From the NCBI GenBank assembly GCA_949282215.1, contig CASDPF010000005.1:1-64000 (forward strand): DNA of 64,000 nucleotides, in the 5' to 3' direction. The notes beneath the pieces were generated by a model that saw nothing but the letters and a program-made list of their open reading frames with translations, made no database searches and had not been told where the DNA came from. This stretch comes from an uncultured bacterium (GTDB lineage Bacteria > Cyanobacteriota > Vampirovibrionia > Gastranaerophilales > Gastranaerophilaceae). Below are positions 2,873 to 14,506 of the stretch, in pieces. How positions within the stretch are numbered: position 1 is the first letter of the stretch; the number at the start of each line of letters is the position of its first letter. The position numbers and the translations under genes are program-made.

Positions 2873-2911
2873 GGGACTTATATAGCAAATTCCACTAAAT
2901 AGGTTAAAACG
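2873..2911. repeat. left terminal inverted repeat
   Basis: 39 bp starting GGGACTTATATAGCAAATTC, exactly the reverse complement of 14460-14498. Similarity continues imperfectly for about 13 bp further in (9 of 13 identical). The TTAACAAT-like motifs just inside may be subterminal transposase-binding repeats. Confidence 0.92.
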
Positions 2912-2922
2912 GTTAACAATGC

Positions 2923-3411
2923 TTAACAATCGCCGTTTTTATCCTTGGAATTATAAATCTTTCTAATTGTTTTGGCAAAATCAGACAATGAGTCATCTCT
3001 ATTTTCAGAGATTTCTTTACTGAAATCTTTTACTTCTTCATTAAAATGTTCAGCGTATTTTTTCTTAAAATCTTTGTCTGAGTTGGAGGTATTACGTATA
3101 GTATAAAAAATATTAATAGTGTCTTCTAAAAGTTTTTTTAATTCTTTTTTATTGCGGGTTTCATACTTGCCATCTTTAACGCATAAAATATCTTCTGGTA
3201 ATCTGTCCAAAATAAAATACTTTGTACTTGCAGCAATAAACTCCCGTTTTTGCATAATTGTTTCAGTATTATATATTAAGCCGTAAATAGTAAATATATT
3301 TCTATAAAAATCTTCGCACTTTTCAGTTTCAGCGATAACATTTACAAGGTCTCGCCCGCAAATCTTATGCAACCCTCTTTTGATTTCTATTATATTGTCT
3401 ATATTTTCCAT
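2923..3411 (-). CDS. hypothetical protein overlapping the transposase gene
   Basis: 162 residues (starting MENIDNIIEIKRGLHKICGR), charged and helical with no recognised domain. Its start lies 47 bp inside the 3' end of the transposase gene in another frame, which suggests translational coupling with the transposase. It ends only 12 bp inside the left terminal repeat. It may be a transposition accessory or regulatory protein; this is inferred from position only. The Shine-Dalgarno is weak (AATCAGAG). Confidence 0.6.
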   Translation of the reverse strand: MENIDNIIEIKRGLHKICGRDLVNVIAETEKCEDFYRNIFTIYGLIYNTETIMQKREFIAASTKYFILDRLPEDILCVKDGKYETRNKKELKKLLEDTINIFYTIRNTSNSDKDFKKKYAEHFNEEVKDFSKEISENRDDSLSDFAKTIRKIYNSKDKNGDC

Positions 3412-4504
3412 CTCTGATTTCTTTCCAGGTAATCTTGGTATCTTCTATATTTTGTAAAAACCAAATACATGCTTCGCTAGATTTCATTTTTCTTGTATTA
3501 TACCTGAAAACTGTTTCATTTGCATAATTTTGTGTATGCTTTGGAGAAATCACAATATGAATATTTTCTACTCGCTTAAATCCTGACCAAACACTTTCTA
3601 TTGTGTTAGTGTGAACATTTTTATCATCCTTTTTAACATAATTTCCCTTACTATGAACTACCATAGCCTGCTTATAAAAAGGAGGTAACTTCTGATAACT
3701 CGGATTATCATCACTGTATAAAGATGAACCTTTTTCTACATATCTCAGTATACCTGCGTTTAACGTACTATCTAACATATTCGGGATAACTCTAATAACT
3801 GAGTCCCCGTTCCGTTGTACAAACCCTTGTAACAACTTTTTATTTTGGTTAGGTATTTGTTTTACTTCCAATTTTTTATTATAGTGCATATTTTTCAGAG
3901 AGCCGCCTGCATGATACTCGTCAACTTCAACAGTTCCGCTTAATTCTTGATGATTTTCTTTACTCATAGCATTTCTTATTTTATGTAACATATTCCAGGC
4001 TGCTGTGTATGTAATACCATAATCTCTCATAACAGTAGTAGCAGCTAAACCGCTCTTATCTGAATTTTCACGGAAGATTACTTCAAACCAGGTAGTTAAA
4101 TCTATTTTTGTACCCTGAAATAGTGTTCCTGTAAGAATATTAAATTCCTTACCGGTATTTTTACATTTGTACCAACCATCTTTACACTTGTATACCTTAG
4201 AAGTTTTATCATAAGGGCTGACAGGTTCACCTTCCCAAATAAGCTCTTCCAGGAATCTTATGCAATCTTCATTTGTTTTAAAGATTGCTCTCAAATCTTT
4301 AAGAGTTTTAAAATTTTTACATAAAGAACTTTCTATATTCATCGCTATGCATATATAAAGTTCTTCAGCATTGTTGAAATTGACTTTTTGTAAAAATTTG
4401 TTAAATTTTTTCTTTATTAACTTATCGGGAATTGCTTTAGAGCCGCTGTACAAATCAGCTATTTTAATTGGATATGAAATTTTTGTACAACTGCTGTTTC
4501 TCAA
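3365..4504 (-). CDS. IS1595/ISXO2-family transposase
   Basis: 379 residues. A degenerate zinc-ribbon region (YKCKDGWYKCKNTGKEFN, about 100-120) is followed by TGTLFQGTKIDLTTWFEVIF, typical of the ISXO2-like N-terminus. The DDE domain has TVEVDEYHAGG (Asp195), LYSDDNPSY (Asp265/266) and TNTIESVWSGFKR (Glu303). The 36-residue spacing of the last two is as in IS1595 (DD36E/N). Length is near the family's upper range. The reading frame opens with TTG at 4504; the first ATG is about 55 residues in, so the start is uncertain. It presumably mobilises the surrounding 11.6-kb element, because its terminal repeats enclose all cargo. It appears intact. Confidence 0.9.
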   Translation of the reverse strand: MRNSSCTKISYPIKIADLYSGSKAIPDKLIKKKFNKFLQKVNFNNAEELYICIAMNIESSLCKNFKTLKDLRAIFKTNEDCIRFLEELIWEGEPVSPYDKTSKVYKCKDGWYKCKNTGKEFNILTGTLFQGTKIDLTTWFEVIFRENSDKSGLAATTVMRDYGITYTAAWNMLHKIRNAMSKENHQELSGTVEVDEYHAGGSLKNMHYNKKLEVKQIPNQNKKLLQGFVQRNGDSVIRVIPNMLDSTLNAGILRYVEKGSSLYSDDNPSYQKLPPFYKQAMVVHSKGNYVKKDDKNVHTNTIESVWSGFKRVENIHIVISPKHTQNYANETVFRYNTRKMKSSEACIWFLQNIEDTKITWKEIRDGKYRQYNRNQKRVA

Positions 4505-4778
4505 TCCTGCCTCTTAAATACCTTTATTCCATCCTCAAAAAATTGCACGAGAACTAAACTCATCATAATGATGAATCTATTCTTAACTTATATGTCTATA
4601 GTAAGACCTTACAGGTTGCTATTCGACAATACCGGGGGATTTATATTCATTTTTTAGGGTGAACAGTTTCTATTCTACACATTTGTGTCGAATCCGTCAA
4701 CTTAATGGCTGCCTTGAGTTAGTGCTACATTTTTCTATGCACGATAGTTAAACATTCCAGTGTAGAAAGAAGGTAGTT

Positions 4779-5324
4779 ATGAATTATGTTGAACCTATTA
4801 AATCAAGAGAAGATATTAGAAAAGTAGAAGATTGGCTTGATAAACGGAGTAAAAGGAATCGGCTGATATTTGCAATAGGAGTGAATACAGGACTAAGAGT
4901 GAGCGACATTCTTGGGTTAAACATTTCGGATGTTTATAACAAGACTTATGTAGAAATACGGGAAAAGAAAACAGGGAAGTATAAAAAGATTTTGCTCAAC
5001 AGTAAATTACAAACCTTGTTGAAAGAATATCTTAAAAATTTAAAAAATTCTAATGAACCTTTATTTATCGGACGAAAAGGACATAGATTACACAGGTCGC
5101 AGGTATATAGATTTTTAAATGAAGCGTGTGAAGCTGTTGGAATAAAGGAGAACATCGGCTGCCATAGTCTTCGCAAGAGCTTCGGCTATCACCATTTCAG
5201 ACAGTATGATGATATTGTTCTATTACAGAAGATTTTTAATCATTCAAGCCCGTTTGTTTCTCTGGCATATATAGGAATCGAGCAGGAAGATATAGACATG
5301 TCTTATAAAAATTTTGAACTTTAA
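4779..5324 (+). CDS. short tyrosine recombinase, candidate invertase of the adjacent promoter
   Basis: 181 residues comprising only the catalytic domain of the XerC/phage-integrase family. Visible residues are Arg40 (TGLRVSDIL), His129-x-x-Arg132 (CHSLRKSFGYH), a later His (FNHSS, about 153) and Tyr about 164 (SLAYIG). All core catalytic positions are present. AGAAGG lies about 8 nt before the ATG. The separate N-terminal DNA-binding domain of long integrases is missing, as in small promoter invertases and FimB-like enzymes. Its stop codon is 17 bp from the left 22-bp inverted repeat that bounds a promoter segment. I infer that it flips that segment. An alternative role is integration or resolution of the element. 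Confidence 0.88.
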   Translation: MNYVEPIKSREDIRKVEDWLDKRSKRNRLIFAIGVNTGLRVSDILGLNISDVYNKTYVEIREKKTGKYKKILLNSKLQTLLKEYLKNLKNSNEPLFIGRKGHRLHRSQVYRFLNEACEAVGIKENIGCHSLRKSFGYHHFRQYDDIVLLQKIFNHSSPFVSLAYIGIEQEDIDMSYKNFEL

Positions 5325-5341
5325 TGCACCATAATGCAGGT

Positions 5342-5363
5342 CCACAATTTATTTTTGGTGCAT
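5342..5363. repeat. left inverted repeat of the invertible segment (recombination site)
   Basis: 22 bp (CCACAA, then TTTATTT, then TTGGTGCAT) identical to the reverse complement of 5482-5503. Each copy has an imperfect dyad, with CCACAA-type and TTGGTG-type arms around the same 7-bp A/T spacer. This is the usual layout of a tyrosine-recombinase crossover site. Confidence 0.85.
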
Positions 5364-5481
5364 ACACACCTGCATGTTAATAATAACTAATGTTTTAGTA
5401 GATGTCAACTTATGGTGCATTCTTAAAATGTTCTCTCAATTTAATAATCTAAAACCTTTATCCTGTGTAACTTCTCGCTAA
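5364..5481. promoter_or_regulatory. 118-bp invertible promoter segment, OFF orientation
   Basis: This non-coding DNA lies between two 22-bp perfect inverted repeats and next to a tyrosine recombinase gene. It contains one strong promoter, on the minus strand, pointing back toward the recombinase. I see no good promoter pointing right. If the segment were inverted, the promoter would occupy about 5437-5465 on the plus strand. It would then start transcription about 55 nt before the GTG start of the nuclease-helicase gene. The promoter content and repeats are seen; inversion itself is inferred. Confidence 0.8.
5380..5408 (-). promoter_or_regulatory. near-consensus promoter inside the invertible segment
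   Basis: TTGACA (5408-5403), a spacer of exactly 17 bp, and TATTAT (5385-5380) on the minus strand. Eleven of 12 hexamer bases fit the sigma-70 consensus. In the present orientation the transcript would start near 5373 and run leftward, antisense to the recombinase gene. Confidence 0.85.
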
Positions 5482-5503
5482 ATGCACCAAAAATAAATTG
5501 TGG
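5482..5503. repeat. right inverted repeat of the invertible segment
   Basis: Exact reverse complement of 5342-5363. It overlaps the first possible GTG codons of the downstream gene, which supports the later GTG at 5527 as the true start. It extends weakly as ATGCACCAAA-AATAAAT-TGTGGTGTAT, an imperfect palindrome. Confidence 0.85.
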
Positions 5504-5526
5504 TGTATAAAACCGTGGAGAATATT

Positions 5527-8500
5527 GTGTTAGTAGCTGATTATGAAGATAAAAAAGATTTAACATTTTTTACCAACGAGGAAGGTCAAAAACTCGAAGA
5601 CCGATTTAAGCGAACGCTAAAAGATGTAAAATATTTTGACATATTGGTGGGCTATTTTAGAACAAGCGGATTTTACAAACTATACAAAGATTTTGAAAAT
5701 ATTGAAAAAATAAGAATTTTAGTAGGATTAAATGCGGATAAAAAGGCTGTAGAAACAATTCAAACAGCTAAACAAATGCCTATAAACTTTGAATCACATA
5801 CTAATGCAAAAGAAATTTCTTCAGAAACATTTGTTGAGGAAGTTTATGCTTCTGATGATAATTATGACGTTGAACACGGGATATATAAGTTCATTGAGTA
5901 TTTACGTTCCGGAAAGTTGGAAATAAAAGCATACCCCAGTTACAATATTCATGCAAAAGTATATATTAGCAGGTTTAAAGAGGACGACAGAGATTTTGGT
6001 CGGGTTATAACAGGTTCAAGTAATTTTTCGGAATCAGGTCTTAACTCTCAATATGAGTTTAACGTTGAGTTGAAAAATGCAGCAGACGTAAAATATGCTC
6101 TAAATAAGTTTGAAGAGTTGTGGGAAAATGCAGTTGATTTATCAGATGTTTACATAGATACAATTCGGGAAAAAACATGGCTTAATGATACTATTACACC
6201 TTATGAACTTTATTTGAAGTTTTTATACGAATACTTCAAGGAAAATCTCAGAAAGAAAGACGCTTTAGATATACAACTGCCAAAAGGTTTTATGAAGCTC
6301 GAATATCAACATGAGGCAGTACGAACGCTTTCTGATATTGTTGAAGCATATAACGGTGCGTTTATTGCAGATGTTGTCGGACTAGGGAAAACATATATTG
6401 CTGCAATGTATATGCAGACATTGCCGGGTAAAAAATTAATAATTTGTCCGCCGCCAATTATAGAATCTTGGAATGATGCAATTTCAGATTTTGGAGTAAG
6501 AAGTGCAACAGTTGTTTCACTTGGTAAATTAGAGCACATAAAGAGAAAAGGGTACGATGAGTATCAATATATTTTTGTTGATGAAGCACATAGATTTAGA
6601 AACGAAAATACCGAACAGTATCGGTTATTACATGAAATTTGCTATGGCAAAAAAGTTATCCTGATAACAGCAACACCATTAAATAACTCAATTTATGATT
6701 TTTATCCTTTAATCAGATTATTTCAACCGGCAAATGACAGTACAATTCCCGGAGTAAAAAATCTTGAAGAATTTTTTAGGAAGATAAGGATAGAGTTAGA
6801 CAAGATAGATAAATCCACTCCTGAATATTTGGAAGAAGTTAAACGGGTTTCTAAAGTTGTCAGGGATAGAGTTCTACACCCGATACTTATAAGAAGAACT
6901 AGAAACGACATTAAAGAATATTTTAAGCAGGATATTGCTGACCAGAAGTTAACGTTTCCTGAAGTTGATACCCCTCATAAAGTTATTTATGAGTTTGATA
7001 AAAAAACTGATGCTATTTTTAACGAAACAATACAAAAAATAAAAAAAGATTTTACATATGCAAGGTACCAACCTGGTGAGGGTTTGGAAGATGAATATAA
7101 GTTAAATGATTTTGCTAAAACACAGGAACGAAACCTCGCTGGATTTATGAAGAGTATGCTTATAAAAAGGTTAGAAAGCAGCAAGTATGCCTTTTTACAA
7201 ACCATAGACCGTTTTATACAGTCTTATAATGATTTTATTAAAATGTATGAGTCCGGAACTGTATATATCAGTAAAAAAATAGATATTTATGATTATCTGG
7301 ATAATGACGACGAAGCAGCTCTTATAAAAGAGTTAGAAAAAGACTCAAAGTCAAAAGCCTATACAAAAGAGCAATTTCAACCTGGCTATATTGAAAAATT
7401 ACGTTTAGATTTAAACATACTTCATTGGATAAAAGATGCTTGGCAGCAAGTTCCTACCGATTTTAAAAAAGATAAATTTCTAAAAGTCTTAAGAACAGAC
7501 AATCAATTAAAGAACAAAAAAATAATTATTTTCACTGAATCCATGGAAACCGGATTGGATTTGTACAATACTCTTGAAAAAGAATACGGCGATAAGGTAT
7601 TGTTTTATTCGAGCGGAGTTTGCCGGTATAACGGAAAATCAATAGGTAAAAATTATGTTAAAGAGTTGATTCATCAAAATTATACCCCAAAATATTCGGT
7701 ACAGAGAGATGATATTAACATTTTGATAACAACTGATGTTTTGGCAGAAGGTATAAACCTGCACCGTTCTAATACAATTCTTAATTATGACTTGCCATGG
7801 AACCCAACTAAAGTCCTGCAACGTGTCGGACGTGTAAACCGTATCGGGACTAAATTTGATAAAATTTTAATTTATAATTTCTTCCCGACATCAACATCTG
7901 ACAAAGAATTAGGATTAGAAAACAGTATTAAGGCAAAAATACAAGCCTTTCACGATACATTAGGAGAAGATGCAAAGTATCTTACAGATGAAGAAGAAAC
8001 AACCAACCATAAACTTTTTGGGGAAAATTTCTACAACAAACTTAATAATAAAGATACGTACAATGACGAGGGCGAAACAGAAAATATACAACTGAAATAT
8101 ATTTCTATTTTAGAAAATATTCGGGAAAATAATTTAGACCTGTTCAACAGGATTAAATATCTGCCTAAAAAGGCAAGAACGGCACGTAAATATACAGTAG
8201 AAAATTCGTCATTGATAACCTTTTTCAAAAAAGGTGCATTGAACAAAATTATAATATCTGACGGTAAAAAGTATGAAGATTTACCGTTTGAAGATGCCGT
8301 CAAGTATTTTGAATGCCCTCCTGATACAGTAAAACAAACAATTACTAAACAATATTATGACTTACTTGATTTTAATAAACAACAGTTTATACAAAATGAC
8401 ATTGCGGAAGAAACTGTTACTAAACGCGGCGGTTCATCAAACCATAAAACAGTTAAATTACGTATTGAATACGCTATAAAAGAAGGACGATTAACGGACG

Positions 8501-8730
8501 TTCAGGAAGATTACCTGAAAAAAGTTCTTGATTTGTATAATGCCGGAGTTGTTCTGAATGAAACAAGCAAGAAAATCAAAAATGAAATAGCCAAAACAAC
8601 AGATAGTCAGGATGTTTATAACAGTGTAAAGAAGAATATACCTGAAACATATTTTACTAATACAAGGGTAAAAGAAAAGCCAAGCGAATCTGCCAGAGAG
8701 GTTATCTTATCAGAGATGTTATTACTTTAA
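5527..8730 (+). CDS. PLD-family nuclease fused to SF2 (SNF2-type) helicase; restriction subunit
   Basis: About 1067 residues from the GTG at 5527, chosen for GTGGAG with a 6-nt spacer; frames from 5500 lie within the inverted repeat. The N-terminus has a phospholipase-D nuclease motif (IHAKVYISRF...TGSSNFSESGL, about residues 140-172). The helicase follows: VGLGKT (Walker A, about 285), VDEAHRF (Walker B, about 350), ITATPLNN (motif III, about 380), then the second RecA domain with TTDVLAEGINLH, DLPWNPTKVLQRVGRVNRIG (about 750-770). The C-terminal 270 residues are unassigned. PLD nucleases working with helicases are known from NgoAVII- and CglI-like restriction systems and DISARM. Here both are one chain, next to a methyltransferase. 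It has no promoter of its own in the present switch orientation. Confidence 0.88.
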   Translation: MLVADYEDKKDLTFFTNEEGQKLEDRFKRTLKDVKYFDILVGYFRTSGFYKLYKDFENIEKIRILVGLNADKKAVETIQTAKQMPINFESHTNAKEISSETFVEEVYASDDNYDVEHGIYKFIEYLRSGKLEIKAYPSYNIHAKVYISRFKEDDRDFGRVITGSSNFSESGLNSQYEFNVELKNAADVKYALNKFEELWENAVDLSDVYIDTIREKTWLNDTITPYELYLKFLYEYFKENLRKKDALDIQLPKGFMKLEYQHEAVRTLSDIVEAYNGAFIADVVGLGKTYIAAMYMQTLPGKKLIICPPPIIESWNDAISDFGVRSATVVSLGKLEHIKRKGYDEYQYIFVDEAHRFRNENTEQYRLLHEICYGKKVILITATPLNNSIYDFYPLIRLFQPANDSTIPGVKNLEEFFRKIRIELDKIDKSTPEYLEEVKRVSKVVRDRVLHPILIRRTRNDIKEYFKQDIADQKLTFPEVDTPHKVIYEFDKKTDAIFNETIQKIKKDFTYARYQPGEGLEDEYKLNDFAKTQERNLAGFMKSMLIKRLESSKYAFLQTIDRFIQSYNDFIKMYESGTVYISKKIDIYDYLDNDDEAALIKELEKDSKSKAYTKEQFQPGYIEKLRLDLNILHWIKDAWQQVPTDFKKDKFLKVLRTDNQLKNKKIIIFTESMETGLDLYNTLEKEYGDKVLFYSSGVCRYNGKSIGKNYVKELIHQNYTPKYSVQRDDINILITTDVLAEGINLHRSNTILNYDLPWNPTKVLQRVGRVNRIGTKFDKILIYNFFPTSTSDKELGLENSIKAKIQAFHDTLGEDAKYLTDEEETTNHKLFGENFYNKLNNKDTYNDEGETENIQLKYISILENIRENNLDLFNRIKYLPKKARTARKYTVENSSLITFFKKGALNKIIISDGKKYEDLPFEDAVKYFECPPDTVKQTITKQYYDLLDFNKQQFIQNDIAEETVTKRGGSSNHKTVKLRIEYAIKEGRLTDVQEDYLKKVLDLYNAGVVLNETSKKIKNEIAKTTDSQDVYNSVKKNIPETYFTNTRVKEKPSESAREVILSEMLLL

Positions 8731-8781
8731 CTTAAATTTTTTTGCGAATGGAGGTTACTTGCAAAAATTTAAGGTGTTTTA

Positions 8782-11700
8782 ATGAATAAGTTACAGGCTA
8801 AAAATTTAATAGAAAATACTTTTAATAAACGGTTTGATAAGGTTCAATTCAGAAATTTTATAATTAATTTTCTTGACAAAATAAACGAAAATAAAGCTTT
8901 TAGTGTTGGTCAGGCTCAGGTTAAAGAAGCATTCAGAAAATATGTATTATCTTATCAGAGAATAGGACAATACACTGATAAAAAAGGGAATATTATTGAC
9001 GCTTTAATTGTGCACCTTAATGATAAGTGTTCATTAGACAGAAGCAGAACCTTTTTAAGAAATTTTGTTGCGGATTATATGCGGACGAAAGGCAAAGAAA
9101 ATGCTCTTGTTGCATTTTATCGTGATAATTCTGCTGACTGGAGATTCTCTTTTGTAAAACTGGAAATATCTTTGAAACAAGATGATAAAGGCAATGTAAA
9201 AGTTGCAAATGAATACACTCCGGCTAAAAGATACTCATATCTTGTCGGAGAACTTGAACCTAACCACACTGCACAATCAAGATTAGTAGAACTTTTAGTA
9301 AAAGAATACCCGACACTGGAAGAAATTGAAGAAGCCTTTAATGTCGAAAAAGTTTCAAAAGAATTTTTCGCTCAATATAAAGAACTTTTCTTGCAGCTTG
9401 TTGATAACCTTAAAGACATTCGCAGCAAAGATGACCGTATTAATTTTGAATTTACAACAAGGTCGATAACAGAAGCAAATTTCTGTAAAAAACTTTTAGG
9501 ACAGCTCGTTTTTCTTTATTTTATTCAGAAAAAAGGCTGGCTTGGAGTTCTAAAAGGTGCAAACTGGGGAGAAGGAGATAAACAGTTTTTAAGACATACC
9601 TTTGAGAAAGCTGTAGCGGAAGGTAAAAATTTCTTTAATGATTATCTGGAACCGCTTTTCTATAATGCACTTGCAAACGGTGAACGTGATGAACAAATAT
9701 TTGATTTGCTGGAGTGTAAAATTCCTTTTTTAAACGGCGGGTTATTTGAGCCGTTAAACGGGTATGATTGGGTAAATACTGATATTCAATTTAAAAACGA
9801 TATTTTTTCAAACACTGAAAAAAACAAAATCGGAGATACGGGTACAGGTATTTTAGATGTTTTTGACAGGTACAATTTTACGGTAAAGGAAGACGAACCG
9901 TTAGAAAAAGAAGTTGCTGTTGACCCCGAAATGCTCGGTAAAGTTTTTGAAGAATTACTGGAAGTTCAAGACAGAAAATCAAAAGGTGCGTTCTATACGC
10001 CTCGTGAAATTGTTCACTATATGTGTCAGGAAAGTTTGATAAATTACCTTGCAACAGAACTTAATGCTAGTGAAGATGTTGATTTTGACGGTTTAACCAA
10101 ACAGGATTTAGCTGATTTTATACACCATTCGGACCAAATATCCGACAGAGAAGCAATCGCAAGTCAAAAAGAAAAATCGACTTCTGTTTACAAACACATT
10201 ATATCCGAAAATATACGTAAAAATGCTGAAGCTATTGATAAAGCTCTTGCTAATATTAAAATATGCGACCCGGCTATAGGTTCCGGGGCGTTCCCTGTTG
10301 GAATGCTTAATGAAATTGTAAGGGCAAGAATATCTCTTGTTGAATCCGGATTTTTAAAAGAAACTAAAAAGCATTCTGTATATGAATATAAACGTCAAGC
10401 AATCCAAAATTCAATCTATGGAGTAGATATAGAATCTGGAGCCGTTGAAATAGCAAAACTAAGACTTTGGCTTTTTTTAGTAGTTGATGAAGAAAATATT
10501 GAAAACATCAAAGCTCTACCAAATTTAGATTATAAAATAGTTTGTGGAAATTCACTTTTTAATGTCGAACATAATTTATTTAACACAACACTTTTTAGAC
10601 AATTAGAAGAATTAAAACCTCAATTTTTTAACGAAACAAGAAAAAAGGAAAAGAAAAGACTAAAAAAAGAAATTGATGCAATTATAAAAGAATTAACCAA
10701 AGATGGAACATTTGACTTTGAAATATATTTTTCAGAAATTTTTCATGAAAAGAACGGTTTTGATGTTGTTATTGCAAATCCTCCTTATGTTGGGCATAAA
10801 GGTGGGCAAAAAGAACTATTTAGCAAAATAAAAAAATATAATCTTGGAATATTTAATAATGAAAGAATGGATTTATTTTATTATTTTTTTCACTTGGCAT
10901 TAAATATAATGCATATAAAAGGTATAGCAACTTTTATAACAACAAATTATTATATTACTGCTGATAGTGCAATAAAATTAAGAAAGGATTTAAAAGATAG
11001 AAGTAATATAATCAAACTAATTAATTTTAATGAATTAAGAATCTTTGAATCAGCTTTGGGGCAACATAATTTAATAACATTCTTTGAAAAAAATAAATTA
11101 GACGAAAAACAATGTTTTATTATAAATACTAATAAAAAAGGAGTTGCTACATCTTCAGTATTAAATCATATTTTATGTGACAAAGATGTAGATACTAATT
11201 ATTTCTTGAAAAAACAAACAGCACTATTTGATAGTAAAAATCTATACATACGTCTTAATCCAGATAATTCAAATATATCAACTATCCTAGATAAAATAAA
11301 GAAATATTCATCTAGTACTCTTATTAATTACTGCAATATTACTCAAGGTTTAGTATCTGGTTGTGATAAGATAACCAAGAAACATATGTTAAAATTTCCA
11401 AATGAAGGGTTCGTAAAAGATTCTGGAGTTTTTGTTATTGATAAAACCTATGCGCAATTTGCAAATTTAGAAACAGATATTTTAAAGCCTTGGTTTAAGA
11501 ATTCGGATATTTATAAATATGGGGCAAATGAGCATACCACAAAATTTTTGATACATTTAAATACGGATGTTAATATATCTCAATATCCAAACATTCTGTC
11601 ACATATAAATAAATATATTAAAGTTATTACTGCTAGAAATTATGATAGTGGAGAACTAAATAAAGCAAAAAAACTAAAGAAATTATGGGTGTTATCATCT

Positions 11701-12198
11701 TCAAGAAAAGATTTTAATTTTAGCTTACCTAAAATTATCTCCCCTCAAAGAACTTATAAAAATATTTTTGGTTATACAGAAAAATTATGGAGTGCTAGTG
11801 CTGATGTTTATTTTATAACATCTAAATCTAAAGATATTGAATTAAAATATATATTATCTTTATTGAATAGTAACTTATATTACTATTGGTTATATGAGAA
11901 AGGTAAAAGGAAAGGGGAAATGTTAGAATTATATTTAACTCCTCTTTCTGAAATCCCAATAAAAAAAGTTAATGAGGATATTCAAAGCAAATTTGTATCA
12001 ATTGTAGATAAAATTCTTGTTATTACTCAAACCGATGATTATTTAGAAAATCAAGAAAAACAAGATGCAGTAAAAGAATACGAAAAACAAATAGATATAA
12101 TGGTTTATAAACTTTATGACCTGACCTATGAAGAAATCATCACTATAGATAAAGAATTTTCAATGTCAGAACAAGAATATAACACATACAAACTTTGA
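8782..12198 (+). CDS. N6-adenine DNA methyltransferase with C-terminal specificity domain (Eco57I/type IIG-like)
   Basis: 1138 residues. SAM motif I is CDPAIGSGAFPVGML (about 495-507), followed by a long helical region and catalytic motif IV IANPPYVG (about 663-670), the signature of N6-adenine methylases. GKVFEELLEVQDRKSKGAFYTPREIVHYM (about 390-418) is the usual lead-in (key part KGAFYTP). The C-terminal third looks like a TaqI-type target recognition domain, ending LLNSNLYYYWLYEKG and LYLTPLSEIPI. The N-terminal 350 residues are like those of large type IIG enzymes, but I see no convincing PD-(D/E)XK site. It probably marks self DNA and gives specificity to the PLD-helicase encoded 51 bp upstream. 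The last 500 codons look more AT-rich than the first 550, which could reflect exchange of the recognition domain. Confidence 0.9.
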   Translation: MNKLQAKNLIENTFNKRFDKVQFRNFIINFLDKINENKAFSVGQAQVKEAFRKYVLSYQRIGQYTDKKGNIIDALIVHLNDKCSLDRSRTFLRNFVADYMRTKGKENALVAFYRDNSADWRFSFVKLEISLKQDDKGNVKVANEYTPAKRYSYLVGELEPNHTAQSRLVELLVKEYPTLEEIEEAFNVEKVSKEFFAQYKELFLQLVDNLKDIRSKDDRINFEFTTRSITEANFCKKLLGQLVFLYFIQKKGWLGVLKGANWGEGDKQFLRHTFEKAVAEGKNFFNDYLEPLFYNALANGERDEQIFDLLECKIPFLNGGLFEPLNGYDWVNTDIQFKNDIFSNTEKNKIGDTGTGILDVFDRYNFTVKEDEPLEKEVAVDPEMLGKVFEELLEVQDRKSKGAFYTPREIVHYMCQESLINYLATELNASEDVDFDGLTKQDLADFIHHSDQISDREAIASQKEKSTSVYKHIISENIRKNAEAIDKALANIKICDPAIGSGAFPVGMLNEIVRARISLVESGFLKETKKHSVYEYKRQAIQNSIYGVDIESGAVEIAKLRLWLFLVVDEENIENIKALPNLDYKIVCGNSLFNVEHNLFNTTLFRQLEELKPQFFNETRKKEKKRLKKEIDAIIKELTKDGTFDFEIYFSEIFHEKNGFDVVIANPPYVGHKGGQKELFSKIKKYNLGIFNNERMDLFYYFFHLALNIMHIKGIATFITTNYYITADSAIKLRKDLKDRSNIIKLINFNELRIFESALGQHNLITFFEKNKLDEKQCFIINTNKKGVATSSVLNHILCDKDVDTNYFLKKQTALFDSKNLYIRLNPDNSNISTILDKIKKYSSSTLINYCNITQGLVSGCDKITKKHMLKFPNEGFVKDSGVFVIDKTYAQFANLETDILKPWFKNSDIYKYGANEHTTKFLIHLNTDVNISQYPNILSHINKYIKVITARNYDSGELNKAKKLKKLWVLSSSRKDFNFSLPKIISPQRTYKNIFGYTEKLWSASADVYFITSKSKDIELKYILSLLNSNLYYYWLYEKGKRKGEMLELYLTPLSEIPIKKVNEDIQSKFVSIVDKILVITQTDDYLENQEKQDAVKEYEKQIDIMVYKLYDLTYEEIITIDKEFSMSEQEYNTYKL

Positions 12199-12268
12199 CA
12201 AAACTTTCCTGTCCAAATCTGACGCATTGATATTCTAAAATAAAGTATCACTTAGAAAGGATTTAATC

Positions 12269-12325
12269 ATGGAACTATTAATCGGACTAATATTATTGTA
12301 TTTTGCGGCATTCAGTGATGATTAA
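12269..12325 (+). CDS. 18-residue hydrophobic micro-ORF
   Basis: MELLIGLILLYFAAFSDD, preceded by AGAAAGGA 8 nt before the ATG. It is one short hydrophobic stretch with an acidic end. The ribosome site is as good as that of the next gene (also AGAAAGGA), so translation is plausible. It could be a type-I-toxin-like membrane peptide, a leader peptide or chance. It lies 70 bp after the methyltransferase and 32 bp before the secreted protein gene. Confidence 0.4.
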   Translation: MELLIGLILLYFAAFSDD

Positions 12326-12357
12326 ATAAAACTTTATTGTCAAGAAAGGATTGAATT

Positions 12358-12987
12358 TTGAGTTATAAAAAATATTTCTTAGTAATAACTTTAATTATTT
12401 GCTTAGGTTTGCCTGTATCAGCAAGCCCATACACTGATTATTGCGAAACAGTTGTCAATCAAATGATAGAGGTGCTGGGATGCTCTGATGATTATTTGTT
12501 AAACTATCCTGTTAGAGTAGATGTTGAAATTATGCCTGATGGCTCTGTTAAAAATGTGTATATAACAGATTACATGGGACGTCGGCAGGTAAAATGGGAA
12601 AATAAAATCCTTGATACAACATTTCCATCTCACAATCTTATGAAGGGTATAGGCGGAGGTCCTGCGGTTTCTGTTGTTGAACGGCTTATTAAAAAATCAG
12701 AATTAAAAAGAATGGAGCAGGAAAAGTTCCTGTTTAACCTGCGTTCAGCCCTGATGGAAGGTTTTTCATATCCTGCAAAGAGTCAAAACTTAAAAGCAAA
12801 AGTAAGATACACTGTAGATAAAATGGGGCGGTTAAGAAACTATGAACTGGTTGAAAGTTCAGGAAATACTTCCTTTGACAATGCAGTATTAAAATTCCTC
12901 GATAACAGACAGAATTATACGGTAATGTATCTGCCGAATCTCCAAACTGAAACTTATACTGATACCGTAACATTTAGAAGTAAATAA
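12358..12987 (+). CDS. secreted protein with TonB-C-like domain
   Basis: 209 residues from a TTG start with AGAAAGGA 7 nt before it. An N-terminal signal peptide (KKYFLVITLIICLGLPVSASP) is visible, with likely cleavage after VSA. The C-terminal 70 residues (KAKVRYTVDKMGRLRNYELVESSGN, then FDNAVLKFL) match the TonB C-terminal/energy-transducer-family pattern of x-G-x-L...SSG...D.A. A similar repeat (VDVEIMPDGSVKNVYI) lies near residue 60, so there may be two related domains. Its role on a mobile element is unknown. It ends at a bidirectional terminator facing the DUF2130 gene. Confidence 0.75.
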   Translation: MSYKKYFLVITLIICLGLPVSASPYTDYCETVVNQMIEVLGCSDDYLLNYPVRVDVEIMPDGSVKNVYITDYMGRRQVKWENKILDTTFPSHNLMKGIGGGPAVSVVERLIKKSELKRMEQEKFLFNLRSALMEGFSYPAKSQNLKAKVRYTVDKMGRLRNYELVESSGNTSFDNAVLKFLDNRQNYTVMYLPNLQTETYTDTVTFRSK

Positions 12988-12988
12988 A

Positions 12989-13011
12989 AAAGAGCAGCTT
13001 CACTGCTCTTT
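12989..13011. terminator. bidirectional intrinsic terminator
   Basis: AAAGAGCAG, a 5-nt CTTCA loop and CTGCTCTTT, between convergent cargo genes. Confidence 0.85.
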
Positions 13012-13032
13012 CTACTATTAAAACTGTTTCCG

Positions 13033-14334
13033 CTATTTTACAAGTAATCTTGCCTCTTCAAACTTCTTCTGCATAGTCGGATTATTCTTAGTAAGTTTCT
13101 TGATTGTTAAATCTTCCGCCTTGTTATTCGCTAACCGCAGGTTATTTTCAGAAGATAACAACGCTTCTTTTGCTTTCTGCAAACGTTCTATAGTCTTATC
13201 AATCTCATCAATAGCTATTTTAAACTTTTTACTTGCCTGTTCATAATTCTTTGAAAACTTATCTTTAAAATCATTCATTGCTGCTTCAAAGTTTGCTACA
13301 TCTATATTCTGTGCTCTCACTACAGCAAGTTCCTTCCTGTATTCTAAAGAGTTTAATGCTGCATTTCTTAAAACAGTTATTATCGGAATAAAAAACTGCG
13401 GTCTTATTACATACATTTTCTCGTAATAATGCGACATTTCTACGATTCCGTTGTTATACAACTCATTCTCAGGCTCTAACATTGAAACAAGAACAGCATA
13501 TTCACATTTCTTTTCACGGCGGTCTTTATCAAGTTCTTTTAAGAAATCCGTATTTTTCTTCTTTGTAGAAGTTGTATCAGCTTCGTTTTTCATCTCAAAC
13601 ATTATTGAGATAAATTCATTACCGTCAGAATCATAATCTCGGTAGATATAATCTCCTTTACTTCCTGATTTCACTTCATTATCTTTTTCAAAATAGGCAG
13701 CTTTAAACCCTGTAGCACGTAATTTTTCAAACTCAATCTCACAGTGCTGTTCAAGACTTTCTCCTATCATTTTTGTAGATAGTTTCAGTTTGTAATCCTT
13801 TAAGCGTTCAATTTCGTCATTCTTAAATTTTATCTCTGTTTCATATTTTTCTTTTAAAGATTGTTCCAATAATTTATGTTCTTTTTCAGCCAGTTCACTT
13901 TCATTAGTAATCTTTAAAATAAACTTTTCCTGAGCAGAAAGTTTATTATTCATATCCACTACAATATTTGCAATTTCACGTTCTTTGTCTTTATTGAAAG
14001 TTTCTAACCTGTATTTAAGTTCATTAACTTCATTATTTTTTTCCGAAATAATTTTGTCAATTTCAGCCTGCTTTGCTATTTGTGCGGATTTTATTTCTGA
14101 TTTTAATTGTATTATTTCTGCCTTTTTAGCATTTATTTCTTTGTCAAATGTTTTTCCCATTTCAAGTTTAGTCGATAAAAGCAGGTTCTGTTTATCTTTT
14201 TCAAATTGTGCTTCTTTGTCTTTTAAGTCTTTTTGAAATTCTTTATTTCTAACCTGTTTTACTATAGCAGTATAAAGAGTTTCGTCTACCTGGAAAATTT
14301 CTCCGCATTTGGGACATTTAATTTCGTTGTTCAT
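13033..14334 (-). CDS. DUF2130-family protein with zinc-finger start and coiled coil
   Basis: 433 residues. The N-terminus reads [14 protein letters not shown], a CxxC pair of the family. Residues about 30-185 form a long charged coiled coil. The DUF2130 core follows ([69 protein letters not shown]). The D...E-x-K spacing within the core (GDYIYRDYD...MFEMK) fits a PD-(D/E)XK-type nuclease fold, but that is inference; the family has no settled function. A second coiled coil closes the protein. ATGAAAGGATG lies upstream. It is the last cargo gene, transcribed toward the restriction genes. Confidence 0.88.
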
Positions 14335-14459
14335 TTTTTCATCCTTTCATTTTCTTTGTGTCAACTGTTAGGTACCTAGATGACTTAAGAAAATGAAAAG
14401 AAAAAATTTGCCTAGGTGCGAAAAGGATAAAAAATAGGCTAAAACCTAGCAATGCTAAG

Positions 14460-14498
14460 CGTTTTAACCTATTTAGTGGAATTTGCTATATAAGTCCC
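14460..14498. repeat. right terminal inverted repeat
   Basis: Perfect reverse complement of 2873-2911. Just inside lie AAAACCTAGCAATGCTAAGC motifs resembling the left subterminal sequence. The stretch 14335-14459 has no gene but contains a 12-bp inverted pair TTTCATTTTCTT/AAGAAAATGAAA. Confidence 0.92.
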
Positions 14499-14506
14499 TT
14501 TTTTTA
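14499..14506. repeat. right target-site duplication (TTTTTTTA), containing a host stop codon
   Basis: Identical to 2865-2872. Read on the minus strand it is TAAAAAAA. Its TAA is the stop codon of the ABC exporter gene, so insertion fell exactly at the end of that gene without changing the protein. Confidence 0.7.

Follow-up and report, generated by a model that had tools for sequence, protein, structure and literature searches.

A probable invertible promoter switch in front of a transposon-borne restriction-modification operon in Gastranaerophilales

At the Escherichia coli fimS element, the small tyrosine recombinases FimB and FimE flip a short repeat-bounded promoter segment beside their own gene. 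The hsd inversions of Mycoplasma pulmonis rearrange hsdS genes, and many restriction-modification (R-M) operons have inverted-repeat operators. Regulation of R-M by site-specific DNA inversion in M. pulmonis is attributed to Dybvig and Yu (1994) in PMC11892184. The same paper, citing Jiang et al. (2019), describes gut invertons as repeat-bounded invertible promoters near tyrosine recombinase genes; the inverton-linked restriction genes reported there encode subunit S and themselves overlap the inverton. For Bacteroides fragilis, a statement in PMC5704556 that cites Patrick et al. (2010) places R-M systems in shufflons whose promoters are invertible, and B. fragilis shufflon transfer has been described (PMC5729914). 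The principle of R-M control by inversion is therefore already known from B. fragilis and M. pulmonis.

The locus described here lies in a 64,000-nucleotide window (the whole stretch of DNA analysed) from a Gastranaerophilales genome, whose close matches bear the names Candidatus Gastranaerophilales and Candidatus Scatousia, and it is very probably a local DNA-inversion (phase-variation) switch of a nuclease-helicase/methyltransferase operon, carried by an IS1595-family transposon. Like fimS, it combines a small tyrosine recombinase with an adjacent short repeat-bounded promoter segment, but the recombinase is only distantly similar, there is one recombinase and not two, and the genes concerned are restriction genes instead of fimbrial ones. 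It shares with the gut invertons a repeat-bounded promoter, apparently invertible, near a tyrosine recombinase gene; the restriction genes lie outside the segment, in contrast to the overlapping S genes of PMC11892184. Only a 118-bp non-coding segment would flip, unlike the hsd rearrangements of M. pulmonis. As in the B. fragilis loci, so far as the cited statements describe them, a promoter flip would set R-M genes on or off and the R-M locus has moved horizontally. Those statements concern type I systems in Bacteroidota shufflons and large transferred segments, whereas here a PLD-helicase is paired with an Eco57I methyltransferase, no specificity shuffling is seen, the recombinase is dedicated and adjacent, and the carrier is a small IS1595-type transposon in a non-photosynthetic cyanobacterial lineage. 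An earlier note on this DNA knew of no described case for such a gene pair inside a transposon. In the open-access literature searched, we found neither a transposon-borne self-contained recombinase-promoter cassette before a PLD-helicase/Eco57I pair nor a paper on Gastranaerophilales and phase variation. The note's claim of novelty is narrowed by the R-M systems under invertible promoters that PMC5704556 mentions for B. fragilis. What is new here is the transposon as carrier, a local tyrosine recombinase dedicated to the switch, the host lineage, and the swapping of a recombinase together with its repeats as a cassette. The features of the locus, in window coordinates, are as follows.

2865-2872: left copy of the 8-bp target-site duplication, TTTTTTTA, identical to 14499-14506
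2873-2923, plus strand: left terminal inverted repeat of the transposon, 39 perfect bases, GGGACTTATATAGCAAATTCCACTAAATAGGTTAAAACG
3365-4504, minus strand: IS1595-family (ISXO2-like) transposase (PF12762, 4.4e-32; NCBIfam NF033547, 143.7 bits against a cut-off of 75)
4779-5324, plus strand: catalytic-domain-only tyrosine recombinase, 181 aa, putative invertase of the switch (PF00589, Phage_integrase, 4e-26)
5342-5363, plus strand: left inverted repeat (predicted recombination site), 22 nt, 100% complementary to 5482-5503
5364-5481: predicted invertible segment, 118 nt, non-coding, assembled OFF; the corresponding segment occurs in both orientations in the related loci L027 and L030
5380-5408, minus strand: sigma-70-type promoter TTGACA-17-TATTAT, directed away from the restriction genes
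5482-5503, minus strand: right inverted repeat (predicted recombination site), 22 nt, perfect complement of the left arm
5527-8730, plus strand: PLD-nuclease/SNF2-helicase with a GTG start, first gene of the operon (PLDc_2, 2.1e-12; SNF2, 2.8e-17; Helicase_C, 7.8e-16)
8782-12198, plus strand: the operon's second gene, an Eco57I-class adenine methyltransferase with a TaqI-like specificity domain (PF07669, 5.1e-32)
14448-14498, minus strand: right terminal inverted repeat of the transposon
14499-14506: right copy of the target-site duplication, TTTTTTTA

The entire locus is an 11.6-kb transposon (2873-14498), and its transposase, terminal inverted repeats, and 8-bp target duplication place it in the IS1595 family. 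The terminal repeats extend to 2873 and 14498 with TTTTTTTA on both sides, in agreement with the earlier placement of the switch inside a transposon. Another copy with the same ends, at locus L030, has the target-site duplication AAATATTA. A further copy, in genome G225, is 98.3% identical over the 3.4 kb compared and has different flanks, the same switch, and the same orientation. The cargo 3' of the methyltransferase includes an ORF with a TonB C-terminal domain (12358-12987) and a DUF2130 ORF (13033-14334).

The two genes downstream of the segment were assigned by PADLOC to HKD+Snf2 (5527-8730, 3e-55) and REase_MTase_IIG (8782-12198, 6.2e-209). An Eco57I-class methyltransferase beside a nuclease-helicase indicates a predicted type IIG-like R-M system with a PLD-SNF2 partner. 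DISARM was considered and rejected, with the DrmD models scoring 135.4 and 96.3 bits against cut-offs of 610 and 950, and no DrmA or DrmB gene was present among the ORFs between the transposon ends. Neither a promoter nor a terminator was found in the 51 bp between the nuclease-helicase and the methyltransferase. The two genes form one operon and would therefore switch together.

When the 64-kb window is scanned for inverted repeats of 16 nt or longer whose arms are 20-400 nt apart, the perfect 22-bp pair around the 118-bp segment is the sole one, and none appeared in ten first-order Markov shuffles. The earlier note had reported these repeats, a catalytic-domain-only recombinase ending 17 bp before the left arm, a single strong promoter facing away from the nuclease-helicase, and, for the inverted state, a promoter at 5437-5465 starting RNA about 55 nt before the gene. 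All four were recovered with the same coordinates and figures. The promoter (5408-5380, minus strand) matches at 11 of 12 positions and is the top promoter-like site within 4500-5560. Inversion of the segment on paper brings it to 5437-5465, with the RNA start about 55 nt 5' of GTG 5527. This start codon is preceded, at a distance of 6 nt, by a GGAG ribosome-binding site that is kept in loci L027 and L028. Judged by promoter direction, the assembled orientation is OFF. The dyad around a 7-bp spacer that the note had seen in each repeat is present but imperfect in the window (CCACAA-TTTATTT-TTGGTG, with 4 of 6 positions pairing). The symmetry around a 7-bp centre is clearer at L102 (CCACA-TTCTAAT-TGTGG) and L201 (ACAC-TTATCTT-GTGT), and the spacing differs from 7 bp in other loci of the recombinase family.

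In the proposed mechanism, the recombinase encoded at 4779-5324 would recombine the two 22-bp repeats and flip the 118-bp segment with its strong promoter. The promoter would drive the nuclease-helicase/methyltransferase operon in the ON orientation, and in the OFF orientation assembled here it would be aimed at the 3' end of the recombinase gene. The switch and operon would move as transposon cargo, with the recombinase and its cognate repeats replaceable as one cassette. By analogy with the described switches, this recombinase is the probable catalyst of the flip, and the orientation would set transcription of both restriction genes. The purpose may be bet-hedging, with defence weighed against DNA uptake or self-damage. 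The promoter direction also makes antisense RNA feedback on the recombinase possible in the OFF state. A segment that inverts mainly to control the recombinase, by antisense self-limitation, with the operon transcribed by readthrough in both states, would fit the OFF promoter, which faces a recombinase gene lying 17 bp past the repeat. Transcripts begun at the recombinase's own promoter could read through into the operon, since no terminator was found between the two. We nevertheless consider this account quite unlikely, given that the inverted promoter would lie 55 nt ahead of a start codon whose GGAG is conserved and that, in most family members with strong repeats, the gene after the right repeat points the same way and begins no more than ~60 bp from it.

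The recombinase has the R-K-H-R-H-Y set (R40, K64, H129, R132, H155, and Y164), each residue at least 97% conserved among 106 family members. Its relatives in the PDB are XerH and XerA. Membership in the FimB/FimE group of tyrosine-type DNA invertases was rejected, with 42.7 bits for NF007370 (cut-off 221) and 36.7 bits for NF007371 (cut-off 222).

The same transposon is present in two other Gastranaerophilales assemblies (L027 in G052 and L030 in G158), where its helicase shares 98% identity with that of the window. Their recombinase is only 54% identical to the window's and has its own, different 21-bp repeats. On the left, L027 and L030 agree without a mismatch for 2586 nt, as far as the final base of the left repeat. 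The 195-nt stretch between and including the repeats is 100% identical but inverted. On the right, 4.9 kb of 99.3% identity begin with the first base of the right repeat. The single strong promoter, TTGACA-17-TATATT, points toward the helicase in L027 (ON) and away from it in L030 (OFF). The two loci are the same insertion, with 100% identity over 2.6 kb, in metagenome bins of two different genera, which suggests misbinning of one of them or very recent transfer. Misbinning of either would not produce a false inversion. A second, unrelated R-M operon, with Eco57I methyltransferase genes and a T5orf172-helicase, is also found in both states: L106 is inverted relative to L103, L105, and L108, with 98.3% identity to L103 across the inverted 176 nt, and its TTGACA-17-TACTAT promoter is ON in L106 and OFF in the other three. 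These data support the earlier reading of an invertible switch, with the promoter directed toward or away from the first restriction gene. The bounding repeats, both orientations in nature at an orthologous locus and a second operon, and an internal promoter, recognized by consensus only, that faces the gene in one orientation together mark the locus as a probable inverton. The flipped segment that the note had proposed to look for in related genomes exists at the orthologous locus and the second operon. The 118-bp sequence of the window itself has two copies in the searched genomes, the window and G225, and both have the same orientation. No flipped junction of the window's repeat was present in viral contigs, 13 genomes of the genus, or 383 genomes of the order, and no further copy of the 22-bp repeat was found in its own genome. 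A search of the genus of G158 gave no flips besides the known one.

In G166, a 97.7% identical transposon end carries a recombinase of the L027 type on a contig that breaks off precisely where the left repeat meets the segment, a break expected from an assembler if both orientations are in the sample. A right-hand G166 contig with the helicase was looked for and not found. One contig of G117 ends 44 bp past the recombinase and another begins ~40 bp before the helicase, and the two contig-end sites have TAGATA-4-GGTGTAT in common. A contig of G224 begins shortly before a 74% identical helicase, with no recognisable repeat at the contig end. In a comparison of L053 with L056, from two genera, the inverted segment reaches 98.3% identity against about 93-94% in the flanks.

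Comparison of the window with L027/L030 shows 91% similarity up to 4783, resuming at 5491. The replaced block comprises the recombinase gene, the left repeat, the segment, and part of the right repeat, and the genes on either side are retained. G166 combines a backbone nearest to the window's with an L027-type cassette. The simplest reading of these alignments is that the recombinase and its cognate repeats may be exchanged as one unit between transposon copies. The repeats could instead be a static structure, such as a terminator, an attenuator, or a controller-protein operator, beside a recombinase that is a transposon or integrase remnant; in its favour, operators of this inverted-repeat kind occur in many R-M operons. 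It is highly improbable in view of natural inversions with breakpoints exactly at the repeats, a 118-nt spacer with no terminator-like site, conserved catalytic residues in the recombinase, and repeats that change along with it. For the homologous loci the static reading is ruled out by their inverted segments, and against the terminator version no terminator was found.

Relatives of the recombinase, counted at E <= 1e-25, occur in 247 of the order's 383 genomes. At 37 of 106 loci examined, the recombinase gene is followed by an inverted repeat with a score of 15 or more, far above chance (0 of 636 shuffles). Promoter strength across all 47 segments is modestly above that of shuffles (26% versus 9% at a score of at least 9), and for this reason an orientation was assigned only to segments with a clear winner between the two strands. 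The restriction genes 3' of the right repeat include HsdS (L102), methyltransferase/helicase operons (L103 and L152), and a type IIG enzyme (L140), and at L201 a 53% identical PLD-helicase follows the repeat; some labels of genes in this position rest on N-termini only. A type III methyltransferase follows the recombinase at L131, where the repeat score is only 12.2. In the DNA examined around more distant PLD-helicases, from within the order and beyond it, no such recombinase is present, and the switch is therefore an added regulatory module and not part of the restriction family.

The recombinase-repeat-segment arrangement also lies before pilin-like, glycosyltransferase-like, and large secreted/autotransporter-like genes (L160, L182, L184, L123, and L148). 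The switch family is thus not restricted to restriction genes. At L104, a recombinase relative lies beside 19-bp inverted tRNA-like repeats (AGACGCTCTACCAACTGAG) with no promoter segment, which suggests an integrase-like role for some family members. That locus, and the position of the window's recombinase inside a transposon, would suit repeats that are attachment or resolution sites of the transposon, with the recombinase serving mobility and inversion a by-product. We give this explanation almost no credence: the transposon already has a DDE transposase, terminal inverted repeats, and an 8-bp target-site duplication, and the same recombinase-repeat-promoter layout precedes many unrelated genes.

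We consider it somewhat more likely than not that Gastranaerophilales have a lineage-wide, undescribed set of self-contained cassettes, each a small tyrosine recombinase with matched repeats and an invertible promoter, swapped as a unit between mobile elements. They would stand before several kinds of restriction system (PLD-helicase/Eco57I, HsdS, T5orf172-helicase/Eco57I, IIG, and possibly type III) and before surface genes, and a large share of DNA defence in the order would then be stochastic. The family surveyed here supplies many natural recombinases together with the sites that match them, and the inversions seen extend programmed inversion to gut non-photosynthetic cyanobacteria. At the window's locus, phase-variable control appears to travel with a mobile defence element, which could enter a new, unmethylated host with restriction silent and later yield subpopulations with and without defence. 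The apparent joint switching of nuclease and methyltransferase raises the question of how a cell survives an OFF-to-ON flip with an unmethylated genome. The window's own genome has a second recombinase of the same family, L228 (G000:C39:7-543, minus strand), which is 52% identical and lies at a contig end, only 7 bp separating its 3' side from the edge; it may belong to a further unresolved switch.
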